Virus record (IMG/VR): IMGVR_UViG_3300030333_000529
Location: 1 to 26,287 of that record
Strand: one strand, 5' to 3'
DNA: 26,287 nucleotides
Source: a virus
How positions within the stretch are numbered: the first letter of the stretch is position 1; the number at the start of each line of letters is the position of its first letter. The notes under the pieces are model-generated. The model saw nothing but the letters and a program-made list of their open reading frames with translations. It did not search any database and was not told where the DNA came from. Positions 4,645-23,032 of this stretch are shown here, in pieces. The translations under genes and the position numbers were made by a program.

Positions 4645-7600
4645 GTTATTTCACTAAGTGGAGTGAAGATTGGCTTAATGCAAAAAATGAAAGAGAAGCA
4701 CTTAGTCAATTTCAAAACAATGAAGAGGCAACAGCAGATACTGATTTAATAAGTAAAAGATATTATGAATTAGAACAATTTAATCCTAGAGAAGATGAAA
4801 ATTTATTATCAGCATTAGCTAGTGAAGGTGCTACTAATACTGATTATTACAATTTATGGAAAACAACTAATAGTAATGATTACAGAAAATACTCTGGTTA
4901 TGTTCCATTAGAAGCAAAAGAACATACTTCTTTTGTAAAATCTGCATTAGCATCAGATTTTAAAAATCCATTAAGAATAGGTTCAATAGTAAGAAAAGGT
5001 TTAAATGCAAGATACCCAGGAACTAATTTTTCTAGTACATTGTGGAATGGTGCATTATTATCTTTGGAATCAATAACCTATCCATTTCAAAGTATTTTTG
5101 GTCCAGCTATGGGTATTGAATATGAAGCAGCAGCAGATCGTATAATGAAAAATAGAGGCGATACATCTGGTGCAAGAAGTTTTAGAAGCTACCCTGGAGA
5201 ACAGGGCGAACAAAAAAAATTACCATGGACAGTAAGGGCAAGAGCAGGTTTAGAAGCATATGTAAAAGGGTATGGTTTATCTGGAACAGCAGGTGCTATT
5301 GCTGGTGCTAAATTAGGTGCTACAGGGGGTAGTGCTGCAGGACCAGTAGGAACAGTTATAGGTGGCGGTTTAGGTGCAATAGGTGGTGCTATTCTTGGTG
5401 CAACAGGACAAGCTATTGTTGGTGGTGGTTACGAAAATAATCCAGGTATTAAAAATGATTTTATTAGATTTGCACCTAGTGAGTCTGCATTAGAGTATCT
5501 AGGAGAAATAGATGTTGATTACAAAAAAATAGAAGAAGATAATATTACTAATTTAGGTGCTGTATTAGAAGCTGCACCAGATATATACAACAAAAATTTG
5601 CAAGTAGTTACAGATGGTAAAAAAAGAGAATTAACATTTAGTGAAAAAGCAGATGTATTTTATTTAACTGCAAATGAATTATTGGCAGCACCATTAACAG
5701 AAGAACAATCTGCAATAGAAGTATTTAACACAGGTAAAAGCATTAATGTGCCGCAATTTTTTAATAGAAGCGAAGTGTTAAATGATGCAATAAGAAGTAG
5801 AGATGGTTTGTATGCACAAGGTATAACAGCAAATGTAGGAGATTATTACAGAATGGCATTGTTAGGAAGTATGGAAAATAAATATTCTCCTAAATATGCA
5901 CTTACAGAAGAAATAGATGAAGCATACGAAATATCTGTATTGGCTATTAGACAGTTATTAGCACAAGGAGATATTACAGAAGAACAACAAAAATTATTAC
6001 TAGAAGATATAGAAACTACTGCTAATGAAATGTATTCAGAACTTAAATTTAATCCAGATACAAAAGGTGCTGGTAGGTTTTTATCAGGATTGTTAAATTT
6101 TTATATAATGTATAAAACAGATCTGTTTGTAATGGGAAGTAAAGGTGTTGGTGTTGCAGGTAAAAGTGTAGATACTGATTTAGTATTAGCAGGATTAGGT
6201 AAACAATATAATGATGAAGTTATTAAAGGCGGAATGGAAGTGTCAGAGTGGTGGGCTAAGAATGATGATGCATTAAAAGGATGGACTAATAAATTTCAAC
6301 AATTAATGGAAGAGTCACCAGATGCACCAGCATTGTTAGCTATGGTAGAAAATGGTATGCACCCAGAGTTTGCATTAAGATTAGTAGATAATCCAAGTGC
6401 AACTTACGATATATTAAAACAAGGAGTTACAGAAGGATTTGTAGCTGATGTAAGAGCAGGTTCAAGAACTATACCAGGAAGTAAAGGTCCTATTGGTGGT
6501 GAAACAGTTGGGGATGCAGTGCAATATGCATTACAACCTAAAGTATTAGATGATGCATTTATAGACAATATAGCAGATTTAATGAAGGGTAATGTAGATG
6601 AAGTATTTAATCAAGCTGCATATTCAAGAACTGGTAGTGTTTTAGATATATTTTTAGGCAGAGATAGAAGATTGCCTTCTATGCCATGGGGTGATTTATC
6701 TAACCCACAAAATGCAGCAGATACATTTTTTAAAGTTGCAAATATGTTATCTATACCAGATCCAGTCATAGAAAAATATTTAAGACAATTTGTTCGTGCA
6801 GTACAAAATGGAGACCAGGCACTAGCACAAAAAATATACTATGACGATTTACTTAAAGTAGAAGGTGCAATACAACTTAAAGCATTGTTTGGTTTGTCAG
6901 ATGATGAGATAGCAAAGTATTTTCAAAAAAACATAGATGAAGTTAGAGGTTTTGGTGTTGAAGGCGGTATATATAATGCTTCTATATTAAATAAATTTAG
7001 AGACCCAGATTTTATAAATGTAATTGTTAAAAAAACATTTGGTAATTTATTTGCTAATGAAGAAGATTTAATAAAATTTTCAGAAAAATTTATTTCTATA
7101 ATAGGACAAACTAGAGATATGTCTATTGCTGTGCCTAACCTAAGACAAACATTACGATACACAGGTTTAAAAAGAAAATTAAGAAACAGATGGAGTGGCT
7201 CAAAGACAGTAGACGAAAGTATAGCAACAATCAGAAAAGCACATGATGAAGGTGTACCTGGAACATTTTTTGACCCAGATACACCTTTAGGAGAAATTAC
7301 AAAAGGTGCATTTGCAGATATGAAAGATCCATCATTGTTGTATAGAGGTCTTGAAACAGGTATTGGTTTAGCTGAAACAGGATTATTTACTGCAATATCA
7401 AGAGGATGGATGCCATTACAATTATTATTTAGATTATCTTTCCCATTAAAAGTTATGTTAGATGGACAATTAAGAATGTCAGCATTAGGTATAGACTCAT
7501 TATTTAGAAATCCTGTTGGATTACTTAAATTACTTGCTAATGACCCAGAAGGTTATTTAGCAAAAGGATTAGGAATAGATGTATTTACTGGGCTACAAGG

Positions 7601-10600
7601 ACCATTTAGAACTGTATCAGAAAAAGGTCCACAATTTCTGCCAAGGTCTCTGCGTAAAGTTATGAATCTTGTACAAGAAGGTAAACAAGAATATTCTATT
7701 CCAGAAGTTATGGCTATGTTTGCAAGAGACCCTAAATTTACATCACAGTTTACAAAACCAACTGACCTATGGGATGAAGCATTAAAACAAGGTACAAAAA
7801 ATGTTAAGTTAAAAGATGGCACAGTATTACCTTTTGTGCCAAATGATGAATTTATAGAAGCATATGTAGATTTCCTAGTCACTCAATTAGTGCATGATCC
7901 ATTAATGCCAACAATAGCAAGAGGGTTAAGAGAAGGGTTAACAGATGATGAAATGGTAAAACAAATACTTGATAGTCAAGAACTAACACAAGAACTGTTA
8001 ACACTCAATCAAAGAATTATTGCAAGAAATCAAAAAAATGGTGGAGTAAAAATTGTAAAAATAATAGAAGATGACACAGATGTAGCAAATTTAGTAGCAC
8101 AATACAGACAAACTATTAATGGTTTTGCTGGAGGTAGTGATGATATTATTGATGTTATTGCTAGTGGCACAATAAAAGGTATAGATTTAAAAAGTTTTAG
8201 CATATTAAAACAAACACAAGCAACAAAAGCTAAAAACGAAATACAAAAAATTATGCAACCAGTGTACGAAGATTTACCTAGCTCTGTACCAATGCTAAGT
8301 AAAAATGTTAATAAAGAAGCAGCTAATTTTGTTACATCTTTTTTTGACAGTATGTTTTTTGCTGTAGGTCAGTTAGAAGCAGTATGGTCCAGAATACCTA
8401 CATTTAAACAAGCATACTTTTATTTCTTAGAAAACAACATACCATTTGCACAAAAAGAAGCATTAGCAGAATTACTTGCAAAACATTTTGATCCAGAAAG
8501 TGTAATTAAATTACCAGACAATATCGTACAGTTAGCAAAAGAAAACTTAGAAGCAGCAAGAATAACACCAGAAGAGTTGCAATCTATAATGAATGCAAAA
8601 GTACCAGTAAAACTACAATACAATGCTAACTCTATAGATACAGTTCTTTATAACACAGAGGGATTGTTTGATGTTAGATTGTTTAGAGGTACATCTGCTA
8701 CAGATGAAATAGTATTTGATTTAGATTTACAGAAAGCAGAGTTTACAGCGTTTAAAACTGAAAGAGAAATAGCTAATGTAAGAGCAGGTGCAAACAATAC
8801 AAAAATATCTGCATATGCAGCGTCTATACATGATGAAGCGTTAATAGTAAATGGCGGTTTGTCAGAACAACAACTAACAAAATTAAAACAAAATTTAACT
8901 ACAAAATTAGAAGATGATGCATTAGTTGACAAGATAATAGATGATTTTGCAAAAGCATTAGAAGATAATCCAGGTATGTCATATGCAGAAATATTAGAAA
9001 GATTAGGTATTAGTAACAAAGAATTTAATATTGCAAAAATTACAGATGATTTAAGAAAAGGTAGACATAAAGAAGGAGATGTAAATCCAGCAATAATTAA
9101 AAGAGTTTTAGAATTAGATACCAAACGACCAATACCAAATAAAAAAATAATAGATGGTGAAGAAAGAAATATATGGCTTGATGCAAATTCAGGAGAGTTT
9201 GGTGGAAGTTATGATTTAAGTAAAAAAGTAGCAGACTCACAAGACATGGATTTATTAGAGGGTATATATGTTAGTCCATATGCAACTAGAGTTAAAAAGG
9301 TTAAATCAGATGTTGAACCTGGCACTATAGCACCAGTAGAAATACCAAAATCAGAATTTACTCCACAAGTTATAAAAGAATACATAGATGCAAATAAAGA
9401 TTTGTTAAGAAGGCAGGGTCATTACTTAGGTATATGGGATGATGGTAGCACAGTTTATATAGATGTTTCTATAAAAATACCATTAAAAGAACAAAGAGGA
9501 TTACTAGATGAACAAATTGCTAAAGCTATGTATGTAGGTCTGTTGTCAGAACAACAATCTATAGCTGTTATAAAAAAAGTTTCTACTCCTACTGTGGGTG
9601 CAGATGGTAAACAAGTTGTTGTAGATACACTTGAAATATCATATCCAAAAGTTTACAAAAAAAATGGAGTTGCATCACACACATCATTAAATTACATAAA
9701 ACAATATGGAACAGAATTACTAGAAAGTATTAATAAACTCAATGCATTAATTAGAAACACTGGTGTTGCACCAATAGTTAAAGGCAAAAGAGGTAAAGTA
9801 AACAGTAACAATGTGTTATTTAGTTCAGGTATGCATGGTAATTTAAACACTGTAGATGATGCTAATAAATTAATATTGTTTGGTGGTAAAGATAATCCAC
9901 AACTTAACAAACTTACACAAGTAGATTATTTTTCTATGCTAGATTTGCATGGCATTAGATCTAATCTAAAAAGAAATATGACTTATGACGATTTAGACAG
10001 AAGAGCAGCAGAATATGGATATGAGCTACATAACAGATTATTGTATAACTTGCTAGAAAGAGGTTATTTAGCTGAAGCATATCGTGTTGCATTACCATTC
10101 TTTGAGGCATATAGAGAGGTGTTAGGTAGATATGCAACATTAGGTGCTGTAAATACTAGAGCTGCATCACAAGTAGCACATGTTTATCGCAGAGGTGTAG
10201 AAACAAATATTATATATGAAGATAAATATGGAGAAAAATATCTAATAATACCAGTAGGTGGTACACCATTAGAAGATTATGTTAAGTCTGAAGGTAGAGG
10301 CACATGGGTAAATGATATGGATGTAGATGATTCTAAAGTTATATTAAAAAGAGGAATACCAATATCTGCATTAGGTGTTGCAGGTGGTGGTTTATATCCA
10401 CCATTAGGACCAGTAGTAGCACTTCCAGTAGGTTATTTAACTAAAGATAAACCAGATCTTCGTAGAATGTTTGAACGAACAATATTTCAGTTTGGTTTGC
10501 CATTTGAATCAAGAGGCGACACATTTGTTGGTGAAGCGTTAGAAGAATCAATGCCATCAGTGGGTAGAAATTTATTAGGTGCAGTATTTGGTGAAGATTC

Positions 10601-11801
10601 TCCATCATTTGGTTTAGATGAAGATATATGGTTAAGGTCTGCAAACGAAGGTTTGCAAATTGCAGCAGTTTTATATCCAGACATAGCACAAGATTTTGAA
10701 GCATTAGAACCTGTAGCACAACAAATAGCAAAAAATATTTATCAATTAAAAGCATGGGATAGATTTATAAATCCATATGCACCTAACTTGCGTTTGTTGT
10801 ATCAGGTAGATGTTGATGATGAAATGTTTGCAAAATGGTATGGAGAAAAAGGTGAGGAATCAGGATTAATGTGGAACTCTTTTGTAGAGTTAGCAGTAAT
10901 ACATACATATTACAGAGACCTTAGAGAGTATTATTCACACTATATGGGTACTAGAGCTGCTGACTTTGAGGCAACAAAACAAATGGTGTTGTTATTTGAC
11001 CTGGGCAAGTATGACTTAGAAGATAGTTATACATCTATGGCATTAGTAAAGCAAGGTAAAAAAATAACAGAATCTGGTAAATTACCAATGACTAAACCAG
11101 AGTATGACTTTGTCAATGACAATGAAGAAGAATATAAAAAATATGGTGGATCAATATTGTATTTCTTTGAGGGTCTTGGCACAGGTGATGTAGATTACTC
11201 TGCATATCAATCATTAGATAACTTAGGTAAAGTTACACCATTAACATCAGATGAGTTCTTTTATTCTGCTGCTATGTATGGTTCATCTATTGTAGAAAGA
11301 GCATTAAAAAATGCAGAGAGAAAAAGATTACAACAAGCAGGTTATTCAAACACAGATGACTTGTGGAAAATTAGTATGGCAAAAATAGATTTTAAATTAA
11401 GAGAAATGTTCCCACTTGCATATGGTAGAGATTTAGGTGAGTTGTCAAAACTAGATGGTTACAACACTGTATCTAATCAAGAGTATGACATAGAAATAAG
11501 AATGATGGAAGAAATTTATAAAGACAAAGCATTTAAAAATAGTCCAGTGTTTCCATTATTAGAGGAGTATTTAATTGCAAGAGAAAGCGTAATAGCATCT
11601 GTAATGACAGCTAAAAAAATGCCATCAAGACAAGCTGCTTTAGATTTTATAACTGGTAATGATTCAGAAGATGCACAAGAAATGAGAGATATACTGTATT
11701 ATAAAGGTGTAGAGATAGCTAAGAAAAACTACATGTTTGCTATCATGTTTGATGAGATATTTTATGAGGAAATATCTTACTATGGAATAGGAACAAGCTA
11801 A
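4641..11801 (+). CDS. Giant internal virion/DNA-ejection-type protein (2386 aa)
   Basis: This is the largest gene of the window. It starts at ATG 4641 (MSYFTKWSEDWLNAKNEREA), overlapping the previous stop. Visible parts: a charged helical N-terminus; a glycine-zipper segment at about 213-265 with repeated GxxxG/AxxxG (GTAGAIAGAKLGATGG, GGGLGAIGGAILGATGQA) that could insert in or cross a membrane; long alpha-helical stretches; RLFRGTSA at about 1346-1353, resembling the first strand of ADP-ribosyltransferase folds; a compact GHYLGIWDDGSTVYIDVS segment at 1593-1610; and a C-terminal third with PFFEAYREVLGRY near 1820 and a hydrophobic Gly/Pro stretch (ALGVAGGGLYPPLGPVVALP) near 1915. Giant head-internal or ejection proteins such as T7 gp16 are comparable in position and size. 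I see no polymerase signature. Tape measure is an alternative, but this lies before the capsid gene, an unusual place for one. Confidence 0.75.
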   Translation: MSYFTKWSEDWLNAKNEREALSQFQNNEEATADTDLISKRYYELEQFNPREDENLLSALASEGATNTDYYNLWKTTNSNDYRKYSGYVPLEAKEHTSFVKSALASDFKNPLRIGSIVRKGLNARYPGTNFSSTLWNGALLSLESITYPFQSIFGPAMGIEYEAAADRIMKNRGDTSGARSFRSYPGEQGEQKKLPWTVRARAGLEAYVKGYGLSGTAGAIAGAKLGATGGSAAGPVGTVIGGGLGAIGGAILGATGQAIVGGGYENNPGIKNDFIRFAPSESALEYLGEIDVDYKKIEEDNITNLGAVLEAAPDIYNKNLQVVTDGKKRELTFSEKADVFYLTANELLAAPLTEEQSAIEVFNTGKSINVPQFFNRSEVLNDAIRSRDGLYAQGITANVGDYYRMALLGSMENKYSPKYALTEEIDEAYEISVLAIRQLLAQGDITEEQQKLLLEDIETTANEMYSELKFNPDTKGAGRFLSGLLNFYIMYKTDLFVMGSKGVGVAGKSVDTDLVLAGLGKQYNDEVIKGGMEVSEWWAKNDDALKGWTNKFQQLMEESPDAPALLAMVENGMHPEFALRLVDNPSATYDILKQGVTEGFVADVRAGSRTIPGSKGPIGGETVGDAVQYALQPKVLDDAFIDNIADLMKGNVDEVFNQAAYSRTGSVLDIFLGRDRRLPSMPWGDLSNPQNAADTFFKVANMLSIPDPVIEKYLRQFVRAVQNGDQALAQKIYYDDLLKVEGAIQLKALFGLSDDEIAKYFQKNIDEVRGFGVEGGIYNASILNKFRDPDFINVIVKKTFGNLFANEEDLIKFSEKFISIIGQTRDMSIAVPNLRQTLRYTGLKRKLRNRWSGSKTVDESIATIRKAHDEGVPGTFFDPDTPLGEITKGAFADMKDPSLLYRGLETGIGLAETGLFTAISRGWMPLQLLFRLSFPLKVMLDGQLRMSALGIDSLFRNPVGLLKLLANDPEGYLAKGLGIDVFTGLQGPFRTVSEKGPQFLPRSLRKVMNLVQEGKQEYSIPEVMAMFARDPKFTSQFTKPTDLWDEALKQGTKNVKLKDGTVLPFVPNDEFIEAYVDFLVTQLVHDPLMPTIARGLREGLTDDEMVKQILDSQELTQELLTLNQRIIARNQKNGGVKIVKIIEDDTDVANLVAQYRQTINGFAGGSDDIIDVIASGTIKGIDLKSFSILKQTQATKAKNEIQKIMQPVYEDLPSSVPMLSKNVNKEAANFVTSFFDSMFFAVGQLEAVWSRIPTFKQAYFYFLENNIPFAQKEALAELLAKHFDPESVIKLPDNIVQLAKENLEAARITPEELQSIMNAKVPVKLQYNANSIDTVLYNTEGLFDVRLFRGTSATDEIVFDLDLQKAEFTAFKTEREIANVRAGANNTKISAYAASIHDEALIVNGGLSEQQLTKLKQNLTTKLEDDALVDKIIDDFAKALEDNPGMSYAEILERLGISNKEFNIAKITDDLRKGRHKEGDVNPAIIKRVLELDTKRPIPNKKIIDGEERNIWLDANSGEFGGSYDLSKKVADSQDMDLLEGIYVSPYATRVKKVKSDVEPGTIAPVEIPKSEFTPQVIKEYIDANKDLLRRQGHYLGIWDDGSTVYIDVSIKIPLKEQRGLLDEQIAKAMYVGLLSEQQSIAVIKKVSTPTVGADGKQVVVDTLEISYPKVYKKNGVASHTSLNYIKQYGTELLESINKLNALIRNTGVAPIVKGKRGKVNSNNVLFSSGMHGNLNTVDDANKLILFGGKDNPQLNKLTQVDYFSMLDLHGIRSNLKRNMTYDDLDRRAAEYGYELHNRLLYNLLERGYLAEAYRVALPFFEAYREVLGRYATLGAVNTRAASQVAHVYRRGVETNIIYEDKYGEKYLIIPVGGTPLEDYVKSEGRGTWVNDMDVDDSKVILKRGIPISALGVAGGGLYPPLGPVVALPVGYLTKDKPDLRRMFERTIFQFGLPFESRGDTFVGEALEESMPSVGRNLLGAVFGEDSPSFGLDEDIWLRSANEGLQIAAVLYPDIAQDFEALEPVAQQIAKNIYQLKAWDRFINPYAPNLRLLYQVDVDDEMFAKWYGEKGEESGLMWNSFVELAVIHTYYRDLREYYSHYMGTRAADFEATKQMVLLFDLGKYDLEDSYTSMALVKQGKKITESGKLPMTKPEYDFVNDNEEEYKKYGGSILYFFEGLGTGDVDYSAYQSLDNLGKVTPLTSDEFFYSAAMYGSSIVERALKNAERKRLQQAGYSNTDDLWKISMAKIDFKLREMFPLAYGRDLGELSKLDGYNTVSNQEYDIEIRMMEEIYKDKAFKNSPVFPLLEEYLIARESVIASVMTAKKMPSRQAALDFITGNDSEDAQEMRDILYYKGVEIAKKNYMFAIMFDEIFYEEISYYGIGTS

Positions 11802-12751
11802 TGTTAAAGAATTTTATTATACAATACGATACAGTATCTAATGTAGATGAAGGTACAGACCCTTTAGATGCTCTTACAGGTGGTGGTGGTATACCTATAG
11901 ATCAAGGATTAGTACAACAAGTAGTAGATAGAATTGTAGATGAATTAGGTTTAGATTCTAACAAACCACTAGGAATAGGATTTAAAAGTAAATACAAAGT
12001 AATGGTTCTTGATGATGTATTAGGTGTAGAAGCACCTAAAGATGTAGATGCAGAAACTTATCTAAAAGATCAAGGTTTTAAGTATGTATATTTTCCAGAA
12101 GATATTACACAAGAAGGTGGTGCATATGGTCCTAAGATAGTAGAACAATTTAAAAATATGATGGCAACAATAGGTTTTATAAACATTAATAAAACTACAG
12201 GCGTACAAAAAGATGCAGAGTATTACAAAGGTATTCAAAAACTTATGGAGTTTTCTATGAACAATGGTGGTAAGTTTACTTATGTTCAAGGATTAAAAAT
12301 ATTGTACAACGCAACTCTTGCAGGACAAGCTCCTGTACAACAATATCAAATGGACACAGATGAGATGGATGAATTAGTAGATGATTACATTGGTAAAGCA
12401 GAAACTAAAAAAGGTAGTCCATTAACAAAGAATGAAAAGGATTATTTAACAAGACAACTAAATGCTAAGTTAGGAGACTTTAGTTCTTCACTTGCAAACT
12501 TACAACCAGCATCAACAGCAAGGATAGAGTTTGACGAAATGTCAGGTGTGGCTACAACTATACCTGGACAAGAGGCAGAGCAACCTGATGTAGAAGGATT
12601 AGAAGAAGATTTGTCAGGAGTAGTAGAAGAGTTTATTGAACCAAGAGAAGAATTAGCAAGACAAGCAGATATAGAATCAGATGCAGCTACAAGATTTGCT
12701 AGAACAATGGGTAGTTTGTCAGCAGCAGAAAGTGATAGAGTAAACAGATAA
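11801..12751 (+). CDS. Virion-region protein of unknown function (316 aa)
   Basis: Starts at ATG 11801, sharing a base with the previous TAA (TAATG), with AGGAA upstream as a modest ribosome site, and ends in another TAATG junction. The product is mildly acidic. It has a Gly-rich turn near 28 (ALTGGGGIPID), a central alpha/beta region (about 60-160), and a Glu/Asp-rich C-terminal tail with helical heptad character (VEGLEEDLSGVVEEFIEPRE). No signal peptide, membrane span or catalytic signature is seen. Being sandwiched between the giant protein and the lysozyme-like protein suggests a further internal virion or neck component. Confidence 0.75.
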   Translation: MLKNFIIQYDTVSNVDEGTDPLDALTGGGGIPIDQGLVQQVVDRIVDELGLDSNKPLGIGFKSKYKVMVLDDVLGVEAPKDVDAETYLKDQGFKYVYFPEDITQEGGAYGPKIVEQFKNMMATIGFININKTTGVQKDAEYYKGIQKLMEFSMNNGGKFTYVQGLKILYNATLAGQAPVQQYQMDTDEMDELVDDYIGKAETKKGSPLTKNEKDYLTRQLNAKLGDFSSSLANLQPASTARIEFDEMSGVATTIPGQEAEQPDVEGLEEDLSGVVEEFIEPREELARQADIESDAATRFARTMGSLSAAESDRVNR

Positions 12752-13815
12752 TGGCAACTACAGCAGAAGTTATAGAAGCGTTAAAACAAGAGGGTCTTGC
12801 AGATGATGTAATAAAAATGCTTGTACCTATACTTGCTTACGAATCAAGAGTAGATGGCGTTCCATATGTACTTACCGCTATAGATTCTGAATCACCATCT
12901 TATGGTTTAGGTCAAGCAAACATAACATCAATGGAATCTGCATATTGGATGGCATTTAACGAACTTAATATAGATCTGCCTGGTCAAACGCAACAACAAG
13001 CAGACCAGTGGAGAAGAGCAGGGTATGATGTTAATGAAGAAGATGTAAGAGACTTTACACCAGAACAAAAAGAATTTGTAATTAATTACATGAAAACTGC
13101 AGATTTAGAATTTAACGCTAAATTAGTAAAACACATGTTGCATCAAAAAGAATTAGAACAAGACTTAAATCCTATGGATGCAATAAAAGATTTGTATAAA
13201 TTGACTATTGCTAAATTTAATCAACCAGATAGACATCCAGAAAGTGCAGCTTTCAAAAGCACTATAGATGCAGAAGTTGAAGAATATTATAGTATGCCAC
13301 CAACAACAACTACAGTTCCAGAAACTACTACAACTACAGTTCCAGAGACTACTACAACAACTACGCCAACGACTACAACAACTATGCCAGAAACAACAGT
13401 ACCACAGGTAGATGTAGGTTTTGACGAAAGAAGTCCTGGCATAATAAATCAATTTGGTACACCTCCACAAGATCAAATAAATACTGGTGCAGGTGGTAAC
13501 CAATCATTTGCGGATAATTTTAATGAAAATTTTTCTGAACCTGTTGGTCCAATAACACAAAAAATTAGAGATAAATACAATTCAAAAGAACAAAAAAGTA
13601 TTACACAAATTATTGAAATGTTACTTGCTACTACTAATAAAAGAAGAGCTGAAAAAGGAATGAAAGAACTTGATAAAAAAAACATATTAGAAAAAAGAAT
13701 GAGCAATTTAATAGACAGAGATAATCAATTTTTTAGAGAAACAGGGAAAATGCAATTTCCTGGTAGTAGTGTTCCTTTCAATATAGAGGATGTAACAGAC
13801 TTTTTAGACGAATAA
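12751..13815 (+). CDS. Lytic transglycosylase/lysozyme-like virion protein with Thr-rich linker
   Basis: A 354-aa protein likely to cut peptidoglycan during entry. The N-terminal 180 residues look like a lysozyme-like/SLT fold: E31 sits in LAYESRVDGVP (the usual catalytic-Glu motif ESxxxP), followed by SYGLGQAN at 50-57, matching the SYGLxQIN motif of transglycosylases. Next comes a mucin-like linker (about 183-218) of VPETTTTT-type repeats, then a basic helical C-terminus (about 255-354). There is no signal peptide, which fits delivery from the virion rather than secretion. Thr/Pro linkers like this are common in actinobacterial cell-wall proteins. The family assignment rests on these short motifs; the enzyme class could equally be a glycosidase of related fold. 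A peptidoglycan-binding partner is encoded two genes on. Confidence 0.7.
   Translation: MATTAEVIEALKQEGLADDVIKMLVPILAYESRVDGVPYVLTAIDSESPSYGLGQANITSMESAYWMAFNELNIDLPGQTQQQADQWRRAGYDVNEEDVRDFTPEQKEFVINYMKTADLEFNAKLVKHMLHQKELEQDLNPMDAIKDLYKLTIAKFNQPDRHPESAAFKSTIDAEVEEYYSMPPTTTTVPETTTTTVPETTTTTTPTTTTTMPETTVPQVDVGFDERSPGIINQFGTPPQDQINTGAGGNQSFADNFNENFSEPVGPITQKIRDKYNSKEQKSITQIIEMLLATTNKRRAEKGMKELDKKNILEKRMSNLIDRDNQFFRETGKMQFPGSSVPFNIEDVTDFLDE
13307..13354 (+). repeat. 24-bp tandem repeat encoding Thr-rich linker
   Basis: Two adjacent 24-base units (13307-13330 and 13331-13354) differ at a single base and encode a TTVPETTT unit. Further degenerate Thr codons continue to about 13404. In-frame unit length means copy changes alter linker length without shifting the frame. 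It is coding, not a CRISPR or attachment site. Confidence 0.85.
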
Positions 13816-13816
13816 A

Positions 13817-16800
13817 ATGGCAGAAGAAAGATTAGTCTGGGGTTCTGAAAAATTTATAGATGCCATCCTTGATGATATGAGAGCAGCAGCTCAATTATTT
13901 GAAATGGATGAAACAGAAATAACACCTTTAACACAACAATATGTTAATGAAGAAAAACTTTCTATTGCTAATCATGTAGATTTTATAGATGTATATCGTG
14001 AGACTTTAGATAGAACTGACCTGCCAGAGGGTATGAGCAAAGCAGAAGCAGCAGATAATATATTGTTGTACATTGAAGCAGCACAATATAAACAAAGAAC
14101 AGAAGGTACAGGAACTATTAATGGTTTACAAATACCAGAATTAGGTGTAACAGATTTACAAGCACAAGACCCAGAATTTAAAAAATTATTAACACAACAA
14201 TTTATTGATGCGGATCAAATAAAAATAGTTGGTATTTTTGGTAGTACAAGAACTACACCTGATGGACCTAGTTTTGTATATGCTGAAATAAATGACATAT
14301 TTGATTTTGTTGAATACGACAGAAGAGATATGTTTAAATTTTCCAAAGAAAGTTCTGATGCAACTATTGATGCAGTTAAAAAAACTATGTTAGATAAAGG
14401 TTACTTGTTTGACATAGGAGAATCATACAAAAGTTCTATAGCATTTCCTGTTATGTTAGGCATGAATGGAAGAATACAAATTGGTGAAGGTAATCATAGA
14501 CTAAGAGCTGCTTTAGAAATTAGTCAAGAAACAGGTAAAAAAATTTATATACCTATCTATGCATATCCAATGGGAAATGTTCAGTATGGTGGCATTCAAT
14601 TAATGTCAGCAGAAAAATTACCATATAGAGGAAGATCTAGGTTTGTAGGTGAACAAACTTTATATGATGCGTTACGACAATTATTGTTTGATGCAGATGC
14701 AAGTGAATATACAGTAAATGAAAAAATAGGAGAAAGACTTGGTGCTGCTAAAGGATATTCAGGTTCTAATTATTTAGGTGCAGGTGGTAGTGGTGGTAGT
14801 GAAGTAAGCCAGGAAAATGTTAAAAAGTTTTTTGATGCTATAGGAGTAGAGACTTTAACTTATGATGAATTGCCAGAAGATAATGTTTACAAAACAGGAG
14901 TTAATAATTTAACAGACACTACAAATGTAGTAGATGAAGGCATAGAGTTATTCCATGGTAGAGGTAAAGGTAGTAGAGTTCCAGACGAATTACATGCAGG
15001 TACATATCAAGCAGCAGTAGATAGAAATGCATTTATGTTTGGTAGTGAAAATATGTATGAAATTATTTATCAAATTAAAAATGATTTTGTAAATCAAGTT
15101 GCAGATCAACTGTCATATATAACAGTTGATAGTCAAGATTTTAGTGCAACAGAATATTTACAACCAGAAGTTTATTTACCTAATGGTAATGTTGATACTT
15201 ACGACATAAGAATAGATGTATTAAAAGATGGAACATTAAATGTTGTAATAGGTAAAGATGGAGAAGAAATAGCTACAGTGTTTAGTGATAGTAGTGTTGG
15301 AAATGTTATTGATGAATTAGAAGATGGTACTAATTTATATTCACAAATTAATCAGGAAAATTTAGAAAAAATTATAGGAGATAGAAATTTAGATAAATAT
15401 TTTGGAGAAGCAGGAGGGTTTTTAGATCCTGATAGAAGTTTTAAATATAAAGATGGTTATGAATTATATAAAGTAACTATTGACCCACAAGCAAAAGTTG
15501 TAGAATTTACAGATGATATAACTCTTGTAGAGCTTGGTAGAAAAGTATCTGTTGACCCAGACCTATTTGTAAATTATTTAGAACAAGGAAAAGTGGGAGA
15601 TATACAAGAAATTACATTACCTGATGGAAAAACAATAACGCTTACAGGAACTGCTAAGGAAAAATTAAATACTATAAAAAAAGAAATGGATGTTGTTGGT
15701 TACAGAAATCAAATGGAAGATGTCGGTAGTACATCTTATTATTTTTTAAACAAAGATGTTTATACAGAGACACCAGTAGATGCAGCATCTAATAAACAAT
15801 TTGATGAGGATGTACTTAAAAAGTTTGTAGAAAATGATCCATACAGAGATTTAGCTGCATTTGACACCGCACCTATAGACAGACAAAGATTAGCTAAAAC
15901 ATTTATGGGGGAAGTAGAAGATATTGCTGATGGCAAACCACTATTAGAAACAAGAATGTTACCTGGTGATGACCGATTACAATGGGCAAGTGAAGTTATA
16001 GAACCTAACAAAATGTTTAATCCAGATGATTTAACTAGATTAGATGTACCAGATTCAGAAAATAGTAGAGTAATTTGGAATGATACAACAACATTTAAAC
16101 CAAGTGAATTGTATTCAAGGATAATTACTAACACTGCTACTGATGAAGATATAACTAGATTTTTTATTTATTTAGCTACACATAGTGGTACACAAGCATA
16201 TGCTAGACAACCATTTAGTAAACCAGATGCTATTGCAGATATTGTAAAAATAGGAATATTTAGTGATTTACCATTAAACGAAATAATACCTATGGGTCAA
16301 CCATATTATGAAGCAGAATTTATAGATAAATTAAAAACTAACAATAATCAAATTGGAGACGAAATATATAAAGTGTTAGTTAATTTAGTAACTGAACAAG
16401 GACAGTTTGCTAATTTAAAAGAAACAATGAGAAATGTAATACTAGAAGCTCACAGAGATATATACGCTGCAAACCCTAATGATTACTTTATTGTATGGAG
16501 AGGTGGTAACTTAAATAGATTTGTTCCTTGGCAATCAACAAGTAAAAGTTATGGGTCTGCACAAGGGGTAATGTATCAAATGGTACAAGGTGGTTATGGT
16601 GGTGGTAGATCTGTAGACACTTATGTAGTACATAAAAATAATATGATAGATTTAGATGCATTAGGTTTATCGTTTAGTAATGAAAAAGAAATTATAGTAT
16701 TAACCGAAGAATTAAAATCACCACTAGCAAAAAGACCTACAACAATAGAAGGTAGAAAAGATATAAGGTCAATAAATGATTGGTGGTTATTAGCTAGAGA

Positions 16801-18637
16801 AAGAGAAGATGCATTTCCAAAAGATGGCAAGGTAATTAATAACTTATCACAACCACTTACTGATGCAGGTCAATCTACACAAAATTGGTTTAGTGATGTA
16901 ATTGATGGTATTGACCCTAAATACAAACCAAAAAAACCATATCAGCAAATAATAGAATTAAATAATCCTGCATTATACGCTTTTCAAGATGACTACAATG
17001 CTTTTATAAAAGGCGGTGGTAATTTTAATCAACACATATTTACTTCTATACCTACATTTTATGAAACACAAATTGCAAAAATGCAAGGTATAACAAATAT
17101 GATTAACAAAAATAAACTTGTAGCAGATGTACCTCTAAACAATGTAACAAATGTGAAAGGACCAGGACCATACAAAATATTAGACATAGGTGGAACTGAA
17201 GGTGCATGGGCAAAAGCTCTTGCAAAAAATAATCCACTTGTTGATATACAAGTATTAGACCCTAATAGAGCAGCTATGTTAGCTTTCGAAAGTGGAGATC
17301 TAGTTACAAATGCAGAATTTATACATGCAGCATTTACACATATTGTAGAAGATCAAGGCAAAGCATTTATAGAAGGTGGTATTAAACAACCTGTATTTTA
17401 CCAGGGGTTTACAAAACCAAGGTATGATATTGTGCATGAATCTATGGCATTTCAATTTATGAGTAGTGAGAGAGCAGAACAAATAAAGTATATTAAAGAA
17501 AATGTGTTGAATACAAATGGTGTATTAATAATAGAAGAAAAGTTTTTAGATGACAGTCAAGCAATATATGACGCTAATGAAGCTAAAAAAAATAATTTTA
17601 AAGCAGAGTATTACACACCAGAACAATTAGCAGATAAAAAATTAAATGTGTTATTAGATATGGAAGGTAATCAAGTAGCAGTACAAGAGGTCCAAAAAAT
17701 ATTAGGTGAAAATTTTAATAGTGTAGAACAATATTGGGATGCTGGAAACTTTAAAGGTTTTGTTGCATCAGATGATGCAAAAAAAATAGAAGATTTTACA
17801 AATGGTATTAATGATGTAGGTTTATCACTAACTAATCATAGCTATTCTACTGCACCTAATAACACTGATATTAAAGGTGCAATAGAAAGACAAATGTTTA
17901 ACAAAGGTACAGATAGTAAACTTGCTGCACAATTAGCAGAAGAGACAGTTAAACAAAATCCTAGGTTTTTTGAAAGAGCTGCAAATGCATTAAGTAACTT
18001 TGATCCTAGTTTATCAGCAACTAAATTACTTAGTAGATTAGGAGTTGTTGCTGCACCAGCGTTAAATGTCTTAGGTAGAACAGCTCCACTATACGCACCT
18101 GGTGATGTATTTATAGAAAAAATTGTAGAAAAAACTGTGCCATATTTAGATGACGCAGCAGCTAGATTAGGTTTTGCTAGAATACCTTTTAATAAATTAT
18201 TACCAACATACATAGCTTATGAAATAGGAGTAGCATTAGCAGATGTAGCACAAGCTGCTTTGTATGCTTATGATGAATCACAAAAAAAAGGACCAAGACA
18301 AGCTAGTAATTTTCAAATAGGATTGACTAAATTATTATTACCAAAAGCATATGAAGAAGAAGCTATAAAAAGAAGTCAGATACCAGGAGATTTACAAGCA
18401 TTTTATAATACACCTACAGGGAAAAAAGTGTTAGAGGAAGTAGATTTTGGTAGTCAATTTATGAAAGAATTAGAAGCAGAAAAAATATCTAAATATTCTC
18501 CAGGATGGGGTTTAACTAAAGGATTGTTTAATATAGTCGGTAGCGTCTATAATGCTAGTCAAAACCCTAGTGATTATACTACAAAAGTTAAAGAAAATCC
18601 TGCTAGTATATATAATGCAGGATTCACAGGAAGATAA
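13817..18637 (+). CDS. Polyvalent virion protein: ParB-like, ART-like and SAM methyltransferase modules
   Basis: A 1606-aa multi-module protein, ATG 13817 one base after the previous stop. Modules in order: alpha/beta region with GEGNHRLRAA at 223-232, like ParB/sulfiredoxin-type nuclease domains; an ADP-ribosyltransferase-like region about 375-580 (ELFHGRGKGS, then HAGTYQAA 393-400 and LYKVTIDPQAKVVEF near 550); a second ART-like module with R895 (VWRGG), S907-T-S909 and E956-K-E958 (NEKEIIVL), matching R/STS/ExE; a class I methyltransferase about 1110-1320 with motif I ILDIGGTEGAW (D1123), D1148 in VLDPN, YDIVHESMAFQF at 1203 and GVLIIEEKF; then a helical Ala-rich C-terminus with one hydrophobic stretch. 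No DPPY is present, so it is not a typical DNA adenine methylase. Large proteins combining ART, ParB-like and methyltransferase domains are known as phage polyvalent proteins (P1 DarB-like logic): they are packaged and ejected to protect DNA or modify host proteins. That role is inferred here. Confidence 0.72.
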   Translation: MAEERLVWGSEKFIDAILDDMRAAAQLFEMDETEITPLTQQYVNEEKLSIANHVDFIDVYRETLDRTDLPEGMSKAEAADNILLYIEAAQYKQRTEGTGTINGLQIPELGVTDLQAQDPEFKKLLTQQFIDADQIKIVGIFGSTRTTPDGPSFVYAEINDIFDFVEYDRRDMFKFSKESSDATIDAVKKTMLDKGYLFDIGESYKSSIAFPVMLGMNGRIQIGEGNHRLRAALEISQETGKKIYIPIYAYPMGNVQYGGIQLMSAEKLPYRGRSRFVGEQTLYDALRQLLFDADASEYTVNEKIGERLGAAKGYSGSNYLGAGGSGGSEVSQENVKKFFDAIGVETLTYDELPEDNVYKTGVNNLTDTTNVVDEGIELFHGRGKGSRVPDELHAGTYQAAVDRNAFMFGSENMYEIIYQIKNDFVNQVADQLSYITVDSQDFSATEYLQPEVYLPNGNVDTYDIRIDVLKDGTLNVVIGKDGEEIATVFSDSSVGNVIDELEDGTNLYSQINQENLEKIIGDRNLDKYFGEAGGFLDPDRSFKYKDGYELYKVTIDPQAKVVEFTDDITLVELGRKVSVDPDLFVNYLEQGKVGDIQEITLPDGKTITLTGTAKEKLNTIKKEMDVVGYRNQMEDVGSTSYYFLNKDVYTETPVDAASNKQFDEDVLKKFVENDPYRDLAAFDTAPIDRQRLAKTFMGEVEDIADGKPLLETRMLPGDDRLQWASEVIEPNKMFNPDDLTRLDVPDSENSRVIWNDTTTFKPSELYSRIITNTATDEDITRFFIYLATHSGTQAYARQPFSKPDAIADIVKIGIFSDLPLNEIIPMGQPYYEAEFIDKLKTNNNQIGDEIYKVLVNLVTEQGQFANLKETMRNVILEAHRDIYAANPNDYFIVWRGGNLNRFVPWQSTSKSYGSAQGVMYQMVQGGYGGGRSVDTYVVHKNNMIDLDALGLSFSNEKEIIVLTEELKSPLAKRPTTIEGRKDIRSINDWWLLAREREDAFPKDGKVINNLSQPLTDAGQSTQNWFSDVIDGIDPKYKPKKPYQQIIELNNPALYAFQDDYNAFIKGGGNFNQHIFTSIPTFYETQIAKMQGITNMINKNKLVADVPLNNVTNVKGPGPYKILDIGGTEGAWAKALAKNNPLVDIQVLDPNRAAMLAFESGDLVTNAEFIHAAFTHIVEDQGKAFIEGGIKQPVFYQGFTKPRYDIVHESMAFQFMSSERAEQIKYIKENVLNTNGVLIIEEKFLDDSQAIYDANEAKKNNFKAEYYTPEQLADKKLNVLLDMEGNQVAVQEVQKILGENFNSVEQYWDAGNFKGFVASDDAKKIEDFTNGINDVGLSLTNHSYSTAPNNTDIKGAIERQMFNKGTDSKLAAQLAEETVKQNPRFFERAANALSNFDPSLSATKLLSRLGVVAAPALNVLGRTAPLYAPGDVFIEKIVEKTVPYLDDAAARLGFARIPFNKLLPTYIAYEIGVALADVAQAALYAYDESQKKGPRQASNFQIGLTKLLLPKAYEEEAIKRSQIPGDLQAFYNTPTGKKVLEEVDFGSQFMKELEAEKISKYSPGWGLTKGLFNIVGSVYNASQNPSDYTTKVKENPASIYNAGFTGR

Positions 18638-20281
18638 ATGGAATTTACAGTAGAACAAATAATGGATTATCAAACTCTTTTAAAAGAAAGAGGTTACTAC
18701 ACAGGTGAAATAGATGGCATCATAGGACCATTAACTAGAGCTGCAGCAGAAGCTATGATGAATAGCGACAAACCAACAGACATTGATGCTATAAGAGGTG
18801 ATAAAGCCATTAAACCATTGGGAATTGCATTAGATGCTATAACACAAACAACAGGATTAGTGTATGGAACTGATGTTGATACAGAAGAAACAGAAGAAAC
18901 AGAAGAAACAGAAGAAACAGAGGAAGAAGAAACAGAGGAACTATACAATGCTATTGGACAAACAGGTCCTGCAGGTGAATCTAATGATGGATATGAATTT
19001 AAATTTGAAAAACCACCAGGATTTGGAACAAATCCAGGCGTATCAAACATTGGAGATCCTGACCCAGATCCAGTAGAACCACAGGATGATGGTGAAGGTA
19101 ATGTATCTACAGGTTTTCAAGGTACACAACTATGGGAATTAGATGGTGCTACATATGTAGTATTTCCTGTACCAGGCACAGATTTATATTTAAGATATTT
19201 AGCTGATGACGAAACTTTAGATTTGTATTACTCCAGTGGTAGAGAAAAACCAGATGTAATATCTAAATCTGCTGATGATGAAGAATGGGTAAACTCTAGT
19301 TTCTTTGGAGATTTAGCAGAAGTAGATAAAGATATATTAGAAGGTGACAAAGAACCATTTGTTGGATTAGCAGATAAGTTTGATGTTGCTAAAAAATATA
19401 GACCATGGTTAGAAAATGATGAGTTGTATAACATATGGTTAGAAGCATTTATAGAAGATAGAGATATATTAGATGAAGAGTGGAAAACAACAGAGTGGTG
19501 GCGTACACATACACAAGAAGAAAGAGATTGGCTATTATTATCACAGGGTCAAGATTTAAGTACACTACCAGCAGATGCAACAGCATATCTAAATAACAAC
19601 ATAATTAAATTTAGAGATATGTTTAAAGCTGCAGGTGTAACAAACATAGAAGATATTGTAAACACAAATGGTGAGTCATTTTTAGATTGGTTTTCATTTA
19701 ACTTTACATCAGGTGCATGGACAGAACTATATACATTAGATCAATTAAAAGCTATTGCTGACCCTAGTACAGGTATAGAACAAGATGAAGCTATTACTAC
19801 CTGGATGCAAGGTAAAGCTGAAGGTGTTGATGTATCTACAACTAAACAATTTGAAGCACAAGTAGAAAACCTAGCTAATGAATGGTTAGGACCATTGTAT
19901 GGTGTATTGACAGATGATCAAAAATCTAATTATGCAGCTATGATTCGTAACGCAGAGTCAGAAGAAATAGGTGCAAGTAATGTTATAGATAAATTAAAAG
20001 GTATTAGAGGTACATTATTTGGTGATTATGATGAGAACTTAACATACAATGAAATAGCTACACCATGGAGAAATTATAGTTTTCAGTTATTAGGACAAAG
20101 AATGGATGAGACAGATGCTACATTTGTAGATGTTATAAAAGCTAATGACCAAAAAACTGCAACAACAATGCTGACTGAATGGGGTATAAATAATAATGCA
20201 ACAACATTATTAGACAAAGTAACAGATGATATAGGACAAGCACTAGGTGCTGGTCAAGTTGTAAGAGGGGTAGCTACATAA
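18638..20281 (+). CDS. Peptidoglycan-binding virion protein (547 aa)
   Basis: Starts at ATG 18638 immediately after the previous TAA. Residues about 5-45 form a PG_binding_1-type domain (MDYQTLLKERGYYTGEIDGI followed by GPLTRAA), the wall-binding helix bundle seen in endolysins and virion hydrolases. An extremely acidic Thr/Glu repeat follows (82-101), then a Pro/Gly/Asp linker, a small beta-rich part (LWELDGATYVVFPVPG), and a helical C-terminal half with EEWKTTEWWRTHTQEERDWL, a Trp-rich segment that resembles actinophage minor virion proteins I remember. No hydrolase residues are visible, so it should bind rather than cut the wall. Function with the transglycosylase-like protein at 12751 is likely, as an anchor at the entry site. 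Confidence 0.72.
   Translation: MEFTVEQIMDYQTLLKERGYYTGEIDGIIGPLTRAAAEAMMNSDKPTDIDAIRGDKAIKPLGIALDAITQTTGLVYGTDVDTEETEETEETEETEEEETEELYNAIGQTGPAGESNDGYEFKFEKPPGFGTNPGVSNIGDPDPDPVEPQDDGEGNVSTGFQGTQLWELDGATYVVFPVPGTDLYLRYLADDETLDLYYSSGREKPDVISKSADDEEWVNSSFFGDLAEVDKDILEGDKEPFVGLADKFDVAKKYRPWLENDELYNIWLEAFIEDRDILDEEWKTTEWWRTHTQEERDWLLLSQGQDLSTLPADATAYLNNNIIKFRDMFKAAGVTNIEDIVNTNGESFLDWFSFNFTSGAWTELYTLDQLKAIADPSTGIEQDEAITTWMQGKAEGVDVSTTKQFEAQVENLANEWLGPLYGVLTDDQKSNYAAMIRNAESEEIGASNVIDKLKGIRGTLFGDYDENLTYNEIATPWRNYSFQLLGQRMDETDATFVDVIKANDQKTATTMLTEWGINNNATTLLDKVTDDIGQALGAGQVVRGVAT
18881..18940 (+). repeat. 9-bp tandem repeat (ACAGAAGAA) encoding Thr-Glu-Glu
   Basis: Four perfect copies of ACAGAAGAA occupy 18881-18916, followed by degenerate copies to 18940. 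They lie inside the peptidoglycan-binding protein and encode a TEE repeat. The unit keeps frame, so slippage would only vary the length of an acidic linker. Confidence 0.9.
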
Positions 20282-21157: not shown

Positions 21158-21184
21158 TTGCAATCTTAATTGATATGATATAAT
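21158..21184 (+). promoter_or_regulatory. Extended -10 promoter for scaffold/capsid genes
   Basis: TGATATAAT at 21176-21184 is a perfect extended -10 (TG, one base, TATAAT). A weak -35-like TTGCAA lies at 21158-21163 with a short 15-base spacer, so the extended -10 probably does most of the work. Transcription would start near 21190-21192, at the first GACC of the structured leader. It sits two bases after the preceding gene and directs into the scaffold and capsid genes. Confidence 0.65.
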
Positions 21185-21190
21185 AATTAT

Positions 21191-21341
21191 GACCCTATAG
21201 ATAGGTCTGGGGGTTAAACTAGACCTTCATTTTGTAATCGGTCTTGATGCCTACTGACAAGACCTGTCAAATAAAAACAGTAGTGTAAGACTAAAAATCA
21301 GTGGTTACTTATACACCACTTGTAAAAATATCGTATAAAGA
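21191..21341 (+). promoter_or_regulatory. Structured 5' leader with competing hairpins
   Basis: About 150 noncoding bases between the predicted start site and the scaffold gene. GACC and GGTC alternate at 21191, 21204, 21222, 21240 and 21261, so each block can pair with the one before or after it. The strongest single stems are GGTCTTG 21240-21246 with CAAGACC 21258-21264 (7 bp) and AGGTCT 21203-21208 with AGACCT 21221-21226 (6 bp, followed by TCATTTT). A competing TGACA/TGTCA stem lies at 21255-21269. A separate hairpin AGTGGT/ACCACT is at 21300-21320. The first stem GACC-C-TAT/ATAGGTC lies right at the RNA 5' end. This could be an attenuator, a stability element or an RNA-protein site. It has no T-arm, so I do not call it a tRNA. 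Confidence 0.55.
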
Positions 21342-21797
21342 ATGGACAATAGAATAATGACAGAAGAACTAAACAACCCTAACACTGAAGGCGATAAGAA
21401 CTGGAAAGAGATGAGGGAAAAACTAAATCTCTACGAAGCAAAGATCGCAGAATACGAAGGTAAAGAAAGACAAGAAGTTTTTAAACAAGCAGGTCTTGAC
21501 ACTACTAAAGGTGTAGGAAAAGCAGTTGAGATGATGTACGAAGGTGATTTAACTGTAGAAGGAATCCAACAATACGCATCAGAAGAATTTAAAGTTGAGT
21601 TTGGGAATCAAGACAGATTACAAGAAAATGTAGAACAAAGTCAAGAAAGACTGGACAACATACAGAAAAATTCTGTTGTAGATCTTTACAACACAGATGT
21701 AGTATCGCAGGTTAGAGATATAGAAAAATCAGGAACTGTGCGTGATTCAATAGCTGCCAAGCTCTCTGTTATAGAAGAAGCAAAAAAGAACAGCTAA
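21342..21797 (+). CDS. Probable capsid scaffolding protein
   Basis: A 151-aa acidic, highly helical protein directly before the capsid gene, the usual place of a scaffold that shapes the procapsid and is then lost. Heptad-like helices cover MREKLNLYEAKIAEYEGKER and the region around residues 88-106 (DRLQENVEQSQERLDNIQ), and the C-terminus is charged (LSVIEEAKKNS), as in scaffolds that bind the shell through a terminal helix. Two starts are possible: ATG 21342 (MDNRIMTEEL) and ATG 21357 (MTEEL). Neither has a convincing Shine-Dalgarno, and the upstream hairpin at 21300-21320 may position ribosomes. I keep the longer form but the shorter is as likely. Codon use has more C-ending codons than the upstream operon, as in the capsid gene. 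Confidence 0.7.
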   Translation: MDNRIMTEELNNPNTEGDKNWKEMREKLNLYEAKIAEYEGKERQEVFKQAGLDTTKGVGKAVEMMYEGDLTVEGIQQYASEEFKVEFGNQDRLQENVEQSQERLDNIQKNSVVDLYNTDVVSQVRDIEKSGTVRDSIAAKLSVIEEAKKNS

Positions 21798-21810: not shown

Positions 21811-21857
21811 CTTCTTCTAAAAAACAATTAAGACAATTTATATAGGAGAAGATAAAA
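21811..21857 (+). promoter_or_regulatory. Capsid ribosome site with anti-Shine-Dalgarno stem
   Basis: The capsid ATG at 21858 has a strong GGAG at 21845-21848. The same bases can pair with an upstream pyrimidine tract: CTTCTTCTA 21811-21819 with TAGGAGAAG 21843-21851, nine pairs including one G-U, and a 23-base A/T-rich loop. That would hide the ribosome site until melted or bound. Pyrimidine/purine complementarity can arise by chance, so the ribosome site is sure and the stem is tentative. Confidence 0.5.
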
Positions 21858-22982
21858 ATGGCAGACATATCGTTAACTAACAATACGATTTATGCACAAA
21901 ACATTAATAACTTTGCTGGTGAATTGTTTAAAGTTGGTGGTCAAAGAACACCTTTACTATCCGCAGTCGGTGGTTTGAATGGTGGTAAAGTATTAAATTC
22001 TACATATTGGCAAGTCCAAGTAGAAGATAATGCAATCATTAATTCAGAACCTGGCAAAGGAAAAGAAGGTGACGCACCTACAGAATACCTTGGAAGAGAC
22101 AGAAGTGCATACACATATGTAACTCAAATTTTCCATAAAGGTGTACAAATGACCTACACAGCTTTGGCATCCACAGGAAATCAAAATCCTTTCACACTAA
22201 GTGCTGATATTGTAAACCACTCTGATGGAGATGGAACAACAACACCAGGTGCTGAATTGGCTTCCTTTGGTGGAAATCCAGTAAATGATGAATTTGCATT
22301 ACAGCTTGAAAAAGCATTAGAAAAAGTAGCAAGAGAAGCAGAATGGTTCGCATTCAATGGTTCTTTCTCTGATGGTGCTAATACCACCCCAGGTGATGGA
22401 ACTAGAGAAATGTGGGGAGTTGACCACTGGGTTAACCAAAACAAGAACGCATCTAACTCTGTAGCTGCATCTGCAAACCCACTAGGTGGTAATGTTTATT
22501 ACAACGACACCACTGGTGATGGTACAGGTTCAGCACAAGTGCTTTCCTTTGATGCAATCGCAGGTGCTATGAAGAGATTATATGATGCTCATGCACCACT
22601 AAAGCAACCAGTTCTATGTGTAAGTCCAAAACAACTTTTGGATCTTAACACAGAGCTTATCGCAGGTAATGTCGGTATAACAGGTGCAATCATTCCTAGA
22701 GATAGAAATGTTGCAGGAATTGACATTGATACAGTAGTAACCCCATTTGGTTCTATTGGATTAATGGTCATTGACCCAGACATTATGCCTACAGGTACTT
22801 CATTCATCTTAGACATGGCTTACATACAACCAGTATTTACCAACATCCCAGGATTTGGTACTGTGTTTGTTCGTGACCTTGACCAAGATGCAAATGCAAG
22901 AATTGGTAAAGCAATTTATATGGAGATGGGATTTGAATTTGGTCCTCCTTCATATCACTGCAAGATTCAAGCAGTAGCTTAA
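21858..22982 (+). CDS. Major capsid protein
   Basis: A 374-aa protein, ATG 21858 with GGAG nine bases upstream, ending at TAA 22980-22982. It looks like an HK97-fold shell protein of the SU10/DUF5309-like type. An N-terminal arm (MADISLTNNTIYAQNINNFA) is followed by an E-loop-like region with GKGKEGDAPTEYLGRDRSAY, then IFHKGVQMTYTA, and a spine helix FALQLEKALEKVAREAEWFA. The rest is alternating strands and turns with a conserved-looking C-terminus (FGPPSYHCKIQAVA). Position after the scaffold, length, and codon use biased to C-ending codons (AAC, TTC, GAC) support an abundant structural protein. The family name is by recall of these segments; capsid identity is firmer than the exact family. 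Confidence 0.88.
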   Translation: MADISLTNNTIYAQNINNFAGELFKVGGQRTPLLSAVGGLNGGKVLNSTYWQVQVEDNAIINSEPGKGKEGDAPTEYLGRDRSAYTYVTQIFHKGVQMTYTALASTGNQNPFTLSADIVNHSDGDGTTTPGAELASFGGNPVNDEFALQLEKALEKVAREAEWFAFNGSFSDGANTTPGDGTREMWGVDHWVNQNKNASNSVAASANPLGGNVYYNDTTGDGTGSAQVLSFDAIAGAMKRLYDAHAPLKQPVLCVSPKQLLDLNTELIAGNVGITGAIIPRDRNVAGIDIDTVVTPFGSIGLMVIDPDIMPTGTSFILDMAYIQPVFTNIPGFGTVFVRDLDQDANARIGKAIYMEMGFEFGPPSYHCKIQAVA

Positions 22983-23001
22983 AAAAAGTAATTACAAGAT
23001 T

Positions 23002-23030
23002 AGGGTGGAACTCCACCTCCACCCTTTTCT
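23002..23030 (+). terminator. Intrinsic terminator after capsid gene
   Basis: A perfect 7-bp stem AGGGTGG (23002-23008) with CCACCCT (23019-23025), ten-base loop, followed by TTTCTT. It lies 19 bases after the capsid stop and is the most GC-rich spot in the gap. It would end or thin the capsid transcript before the tail genes. Confidence 0.8.
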
Positions 23031-23032
23031 TG

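Follow-up and report, generated by a model that had tools for sequence, protein, structure and literature searches.

The longest gap in the local region of the phage genome studied here separates a gene of unknown function, which ends at position 21156, from a scaffold gene, and within it sits a leader with five alternating GACC/GGTC blocks. This raises the question of what the leader RNA is and what it does for the genes behind it. The sequence belongs to IMG/VR record IMGVR_UViG_3300030333_000529, and we refer to the whole analyzed stretch of 26,287 nucleotides as the window. A preliminary description had placed a structured leader at 21191 to 21341 and had read its blocks as mutually exclusive stems of a transcription attenuator or switch. 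We found that these coordinates agree with a conserved element that runs from about 21191 to a ribosome-binding site at about 21346, and that covariation in relatives upholds a structured leader RNA on the scaffold/capsid transcript.

The scaffold-capsid unit and its phage

The gene directly behind the leader (21357 to 21797, plus strand; phrog_7813) was identified as a scaffolding protein gene through synteny, because mycobacteriophages Mendokysei and Nebkiss have annotated scaffolding genes beside capsid genes homologous to the one found here. Alignment and Shine-Dalgarno spacing favor the second ATG (21357) over that at 21342 as its probable start, and relatives use the ATG equivalent to 21357. 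The second cistron of the operon (21858 to 22982, plus strand) encodes the major capsid protein (phrog_1328 major head protein, E 2.5e-26) and also matches mycobacteriophage major capsid proteins by tblastn. Elsewhere in the window, two very large open reading frames (4641 to 11801 and 13817 to 18637; 2386 and 1606 amino acids) have no Pfam match, and two frames contain simple repeats, a VPETTTTT-type stretch in that at 12751 to 13815 and a TEETEETEE run in that at 18638 to 20281, which also matches PG_binding_1 weakly.

The host is probably a marine actinobacterium. This rests on an Actinomycetota metagenome-assembled genome (MAG) that contains one relative and a second, more distant phage, on the hosts of cultured capsid relatives (Mycobacterium, Propionibacterium, and Bifidobacterium), and on the known 'Ca. 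Actinomarinales' phages of similar GC content (PMC7771536). The two sequences in that MAG (L339 and L340, genome G001) are different phages of the group, with capsids 80% and 69% identical to that of the window.

A chain of pseudoknots conserved in six leader classes

The sequence evidence supports well a predicted chain of three consecutive H-type pseudoknots on the plus strand. PK1 (21193 to 21226) combines stem S1, CCCT (21193 to 21196) with GGGG (21209 to 21212), and stem S2, AGGTC (21203 to 21207) with GACCT (21222 to 21226). PK2 (21240 to 21283) combines S1, GGTCTTG (21240 to 21246) with CAAGACC (21258 to 21264), and S2, CTACTG (21251 to 21256) with CAGTAG (21278 to 21283), and has an A-rich third loop, TGTCAAATAAAAA. 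PK3 (21300 to 21338) combines S1, AGTGGT (21300 to 21305) with ACCACT (21315 to 21320), and S2, TTATAC (21309 to 21314) with GTATAA (21333 to 21338); both stems are perfect inverted repeats (I8 and I9). An unsupervised, alignment-blind knot finder recovered all three from the window alone. The pseudoknot chain score of the leader was -40.9, compared with -10.6 (standard deviation, 4.7) in dinucleotide shuffles, none of 60 of which scored as well, and the best of 256 other 168-nucleotide stretches of the window reached -28.2. Nested RNA folding of the leader was ordinary (z -0.83) and missed the knots, so models limited to simple hairpins are blind to what is unusual here.

A search with the capsid protein yielded 80 viral contigs, in which the gaps before the scaffold gene sort into distinct sequence classes. 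With two pattern scans and two further capsid searches, the collection came to about 180 distinct upstream regions, every one of which was assigned: 62 to class A (window included), 61 to class B, 52 to class E, 3 to class C, 2 to class D, and 1 to class F. Where a scanned copy had a readable downstream reading frame, this was the scaffold gene in 163 of 166 cases; the three exceptions (L082, L083, and L094) are class A 16-mer matches and are probably chance matches. Leaders of class E have four knots, as class F probably does, and the knot finder returned three or four knots on the class C to F examples tested. In the gap between the scaffold and capsid genes of class A (window 21815 to 21860), the capsid Shine-Dalgarno sequence AGGAGAAG could pair with CTTCTTCT upstream.

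Judged from their sequences, the six classes look like one family. BLASTN linked A with E, C with E, D with E, D with F, E with F, and B with D, the A-E and C-E links being weak. The first knot is common to D, E, and F; the last knot is similar in sequence in B and D, and that of F is alike by eye. The first stem of PK2 reads GGTCTTG/CAAGACC in class A, AGCTTTC/GAAAGCT in E, GTGTA/TACAC in C, GATAGG/CCTATT in D, and ACACA/TGTGT in F, and takes many forms in B, for example, GATAACAC/GTGTTATC. Across classes, we counted 31 distinct S1 and 11 distinct S2 helices in PK2, with 98.1% of 939 cells paired, the class B knot being equated with the others by position and loop similarity in the absence of a significant sequence match. 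Therefore, the element behaves as a string of exchangeable knot modules. Leader class tracks the scaffold clade (the nearest neighbor was of the same class in 180 of 181 cases), and it tracks the upstream gene as well (178 of 179). Capsids can be 97% identical behind leaders of classes A and B (L409 versus L401 to L403), which points to recombination between leader/scaffold and capsid. The pre-scaffold gaps of the cultured actinophage relatives Mendokysei, Dulem 32, BigBern1, and Doucette contained no significant knot chain. Since these phages have homologous capsid genes, capsid synthesis does not generally need such a leader.

The preliminary description had called for compensatory changes to be sought in related phages, and we found them, using our own helix-level simulation rather than R-scape, with trees built from the leader itself. 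In the class A alignment, made structure-blind with MAFFT, 95.8% of cells were paired and 75 were doubly changed, while slid controls were 34 to 50% paired. When substitutions were re-placed on the tree in 300 simulations, the maxima were 92.0% paired and 46 doubly changed, and none of the 300 reached the observed values. Class B gave 96.7% paired and 58 doubly changed (simulation maxima, 93.3% and 28), and class E, scored over its four knots, gave 98.9% and 73 (maxima, 97.6% and 27). In an unsupervised G-test with average product correction (APC) on class A, 2 of 15400 column pairs were significant, and both lie in proposed helices (17-34 in PK1 and 143-159 in PK3). This per-pair test is weak here, as independent substitutions are few, and in class B its three further significant pairs stem from a one-base misalignment in the PK1 loop. 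For these reasons, the helix-level simulation is our main test.

The changes can be read off individual stems. S1 of PK1 occurs as CCC/GGG, CAC/GTG, TTT/AAA, TCT/AGA, and CTGC/GCAG, and S2 changes from AGGTC/GACCT to AAGTC/GACTT; one class A sequence (L015) does not fit the automatic PK1 pattern. PK2 S1 is unchanged throughout class A, and PK2 S2 has the variants CTACTT/AAGTAG (L013) and CTACTA/TAGTAG (L042). In PK3, S1 changes from AGTGGT/ACCACT to AGAGGT/ACCTCT and AGAGAT/ATCTCT, and S2 reads CTGATG/CATTAG in L026. G-U pairs are common, with U-G in 24 of 31 sequences at 19-32 of alignment A1 and G-U in 40 of 49 at 156-177 of alignment A4. This argues for an RNA rather than a DNA site.

The five blocks occur where they had been described (GACC at 21191 to 21194, GGTC at 21204 to 21207, GACC at 21222 to 21225, GGTC at 21240 to 21243, and GACC at 21261 to 21264), and both stems singled out at the time, AGGTCT/AGACCT and GGTCTTG/CAAGACC, exist in the sequence. 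Of the neighboring pairs, each of which had been proposed as able to form a stem, 2-3 (PK1 S2) and 4-5 (PK2 S1) are real, whereas 1-2 and 3-4 showed no convincing covariation. Each of the real pairings is one half of an H-type pseudoknot; the partner helices CCCT/GGGG and CTACTG/CAGTAG had been missed, and PK3 contains no GACC/GGTC at all. Mutual exclusion was not supported by the comparison: pairs 1-2 and 3-4 gave one doubly compensated pair, where shuffles led us to expect 0.7, and 18 of 31 sequences disrupt the 14-30 pair. The run TCATTTT, likened to the U-run of a terminator, is lost in L026, L027, L042, and L045 (GACCTAGAACGAATACGG), which have AGAACGAATAC in its place in the class A alignment. 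The alternating-block pattern is absent from the leaders of classes B to F, which nevertheless retain the knot architecture. Thus, the relatives conserve neither covarying mutually exclusive stems nor the U-run that a Rho-independent attenuator would have, and the alignment largely refutes the attenuator as a reading of the predicted RNA.

What the leader may do for the late message

The knots are framed closely by a promoter and a ribosome-binding site. An extended -10 promoter, TGATATAAT, lies at 21176 to 21184 on the plus strand (hexamer 21179 to 21184) and predicts a transcription start at about 21191, in line with the start near 21190 that had been anticipated. A weak -35-like TTGCAA (21158 to 21163, plus strand), with a short 15-nucleotide spacer, was not decisive in a consensus scan. 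In all 156 distinct relatives measured (classes A, B, D, and E), the -10 hexamer is 6 to 12 nucleotides upstream of the first paired base of PK1; the hexamers are mostly TATAAT or TATACT, and every class A leader measured has the TGn motif. Therefore, from this spacing, transcription is expected to start within a few nucleotides of PK1. At the other end, the Shine-Dalgarno-like GAATGGA (21340 to 21346, plus strand; AAGGA in relatives, alignment A1) is just 3' of PK3 and unpaired in the model, and the distance from the last knot to the Shine-Dalgarno sequence is 2 to 7 nucleotides in classes A, B, and E. The knots and the Shine-Dalgarno sequence never overlap, which argues for an open ribosome-binding site. 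The 5' untranslated region would thus be almost wholly knotted, with its ribosome-binding site predicted to be free.

We consider that the leader probably stabilizes the message or boosts or controls shell production. In our preferred, tentative reading, it is a cis-acting leader of the late mRNA that would shield the 5' end and present an open ribosome-binding site. This role fits best because the knots extend from about +1 to the Shine-Dalgarno sequence, which lies outside the helices, because no terminator precedes the gene, and because scaffold and capsid form a two-gene unit. The leader would act in cis on the scaffold-capsid message. Its knots would fold successively while RNA polymerase leaves the promoter, so that pyrophosphohydrolase, RNase J, or RNase E would meet a 5' end without an exposed single strand to seize, and the ribosome-binding site could not be trapped by pairing elsewhere. 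The late message would then be long-lived and would be initiated efficiently, as suits two proteins that the phage needs in bulk. We hold this reading at somewhat less than even confidence because the near-invariant loops suggest specific binding or a precise fold. Within a class, the loops and PK2 are highly conserved. Loops kept this strictly suggest that stability is not their whole role and that they make specific tertiary contacts or bind a host factor, such as the ribosome or a ribonuclease. Since pure armor would not need near-invariant loops and, in class A, an invariant PK2 S1, some specific recognition is likely as well. A bolder version, which we regard as possible but doubtful, is an RNA-only device that would act directly on the bacterial expression machinery, such as a ribosome recruiter parallel to the triple-pseudoknot viral internal ribosome entry sites (IRESs) or a polymerase-modifying RNA, built from exchangeable modules in a large group of marine actinobacterial phages.

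Could the knots instead act on the polymerase as an antiterminator? Nascent knots that start at the predicted transcript start, like the put RNAs of phage HK022, would bind RNA polymerase so that it ignored terminators, and the tail genes would be expressed past the terminator-like hairpin and U-run right behind the capsid gene (23002 to 23025). This seems unlikely, as the U-run of that hairpin is missing in L003, L014, L016, and L044 despite intact leaders, Rfam gave no match, and several distinct leader classes would all need to suit one host polymerase. The hairpin belongs to a second conserved structured element (window 22996 to 23032; AAGATTAGGGTGGAACTCCACCTCCACCCTTTTCTT), found behind leader classes A to D; its variants retain the stem and a loop resembling CTCCACC. 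Because some of them lose the U-run, this element may not be a plain terminator.

We likewise think it unlikely that the leader is an autoregulatory operator, on which an excess of a phage or host protein (scaffold, capsid, or ribosomal protein) would bind the knots and block initiation. The conserved loops and PK2 are what such a site would show, and leader class does follow the scaffold clade. However, the upstream gene is linked to the leader as tightly and the scaffolds of all classes are acidic (median pI, about 4.6), so recognition by scaffold is not favored; recognition by capsid protein is unlikely because 97%-identical capsids follow different leader classes. For the same reasons, the nearly identical capsids and the acidic scaffolds, we favor a general role over recognition by structural proteins.

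A riboswitch or tandem riboswitch, with each H-type knot sensing a small molecule to control access to the ribosome-binding site, is improbable. The knots with their A-rich third loops recall the architectures of SAM-II and preQ1, and the Shine-Dalgarno sequence is close to the last knot; it is in no helix, however, no Rfam riboswitch matched, and it would be odd for a metabolite switch to control capsid genes. Similarly improbable is a leader released by processing as an RNA of its own that acts in trans or enters the virion, for instance in packaging or to decoy host RNases or defense. Its length of about 150 nucleotides, its modular knots, and the single element that each phage has before its scaffold gene would suit such an RNA, but there is no terminator between leader and scaffold, there are no tandem repeats, and the element is always fused to the same gene. 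Least probable of all is the attenuator, in which alternating GACC/GGTC stems would exclude one another and one would terminate: alternative pairings are possible within the window, but pairs 1-2 and 3-4, the U-run, and the block pattern all fail in the relatives as described above.

Several other identities were rejected. A 13-codon ATG frame over PK2 (MPTDKTCQIKTVV) lacks a Shine-Dalgarno sequence, and L010, L013, and L032 carry indels that disrupt it; a frameshift stimulator does not apply where no reading frame crosses the leader. The G-U pairs, the fixed strand, and the promoter/ribosome-binding-site framing favor RNA over a DNA site (cos, pac, or origin); where contigs end close by, the assembly more probably broke because the stretch is conserved. 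No Rfam ribozyme matched, which argues against self-cleavage, and a ToxI-like decoy was set aside because repeats are lacking. The T-box-like string GGGTAACACCGCG, found in L378, L412, and other class E leaders within knot 3 and its 3' flank, gave no T-box match in Rfam.

Relation to known structured RNAs

With the covariance models of Rfam 15, we found no match above the gathering threshold in the window or in nine loci of classes A to C, and nothing even at E of ≤1 for L378, L340, L411, L361, and L073 (classes D to F); the preliminary description, too, had recognized no riboswitch class. A literature search over a limited set of papers found no tandem pseudoknots in phage. A whole phage group appears to use a knot chain as the complete 5' untranslated region of its scaffold-capsid operon, and evolution has retained the architecture while replacing nearly all of the stem sequences. 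The leaders thus offer a natural variant set for asking how serial pseudoknots affect bacterial mRNA decay, translation initiation, or transcription, and the chain can serve as a marker for uncultured marine actinophages.

The HK022 put RNAs consist of two hairpins in the early operons. They resemble our leader as structured phage RNAs at a transcript 5' end, but they are not known to form a pseudoknot chain. SAM-II and preQ1 riboswitches are pseudoknots of the H type with an A-rich third loop upstream of the ribosome-binding site, whereas in our leader the Shine-Dalgarno sequence is not sequestered, Rfam finds no match, and the target is capsid synthesis. The type III toxin-antitoxin RNA ToxI also has tandem small H-type pseudoknots 3' of a promoter (PMC8860590). 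In ToxI, however, these are direct repeats of nearly the same sequence, with a terminator and a toxin gene behind them, whereas here the knots differ in sequence, no tandem direct repeats of 20 to 55 nucleotides occur (only one 9-nucleotide, two-copy repeat), and the scaffold gene follows without a terminator. The dicistrovirus intergenic-region IRES is likewise a triple-pseudoknot RNA upstream of capsid genes (PMC12221177). It serves eukaryotic ribosomes through a compact interlocked fold with a tRNA-mimicking PKI and a non-AUG start, in contrast to the tandem H-type knots, Shine-Dalgarno sequence, and ATG of this bacterial phage. Single H-type knots in phage mRNA leaders are known from T4, where gp32 acts on the pseudoknot in its own leader (PMC3014915). 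The gene 32 mRNA leaders of T4, T2, and RB69 resemble ours in placing an H-type pseudoknot ahead of a phage coding sequence, but theirs is one knot, bound by the gene product, whereas here three or four consecutive knots make up the whole leader. Thus, we propose that these structured phage leaders form a new RNA family, in which the chain architecture is unusual and the single leader pseudoknot is already familiar.
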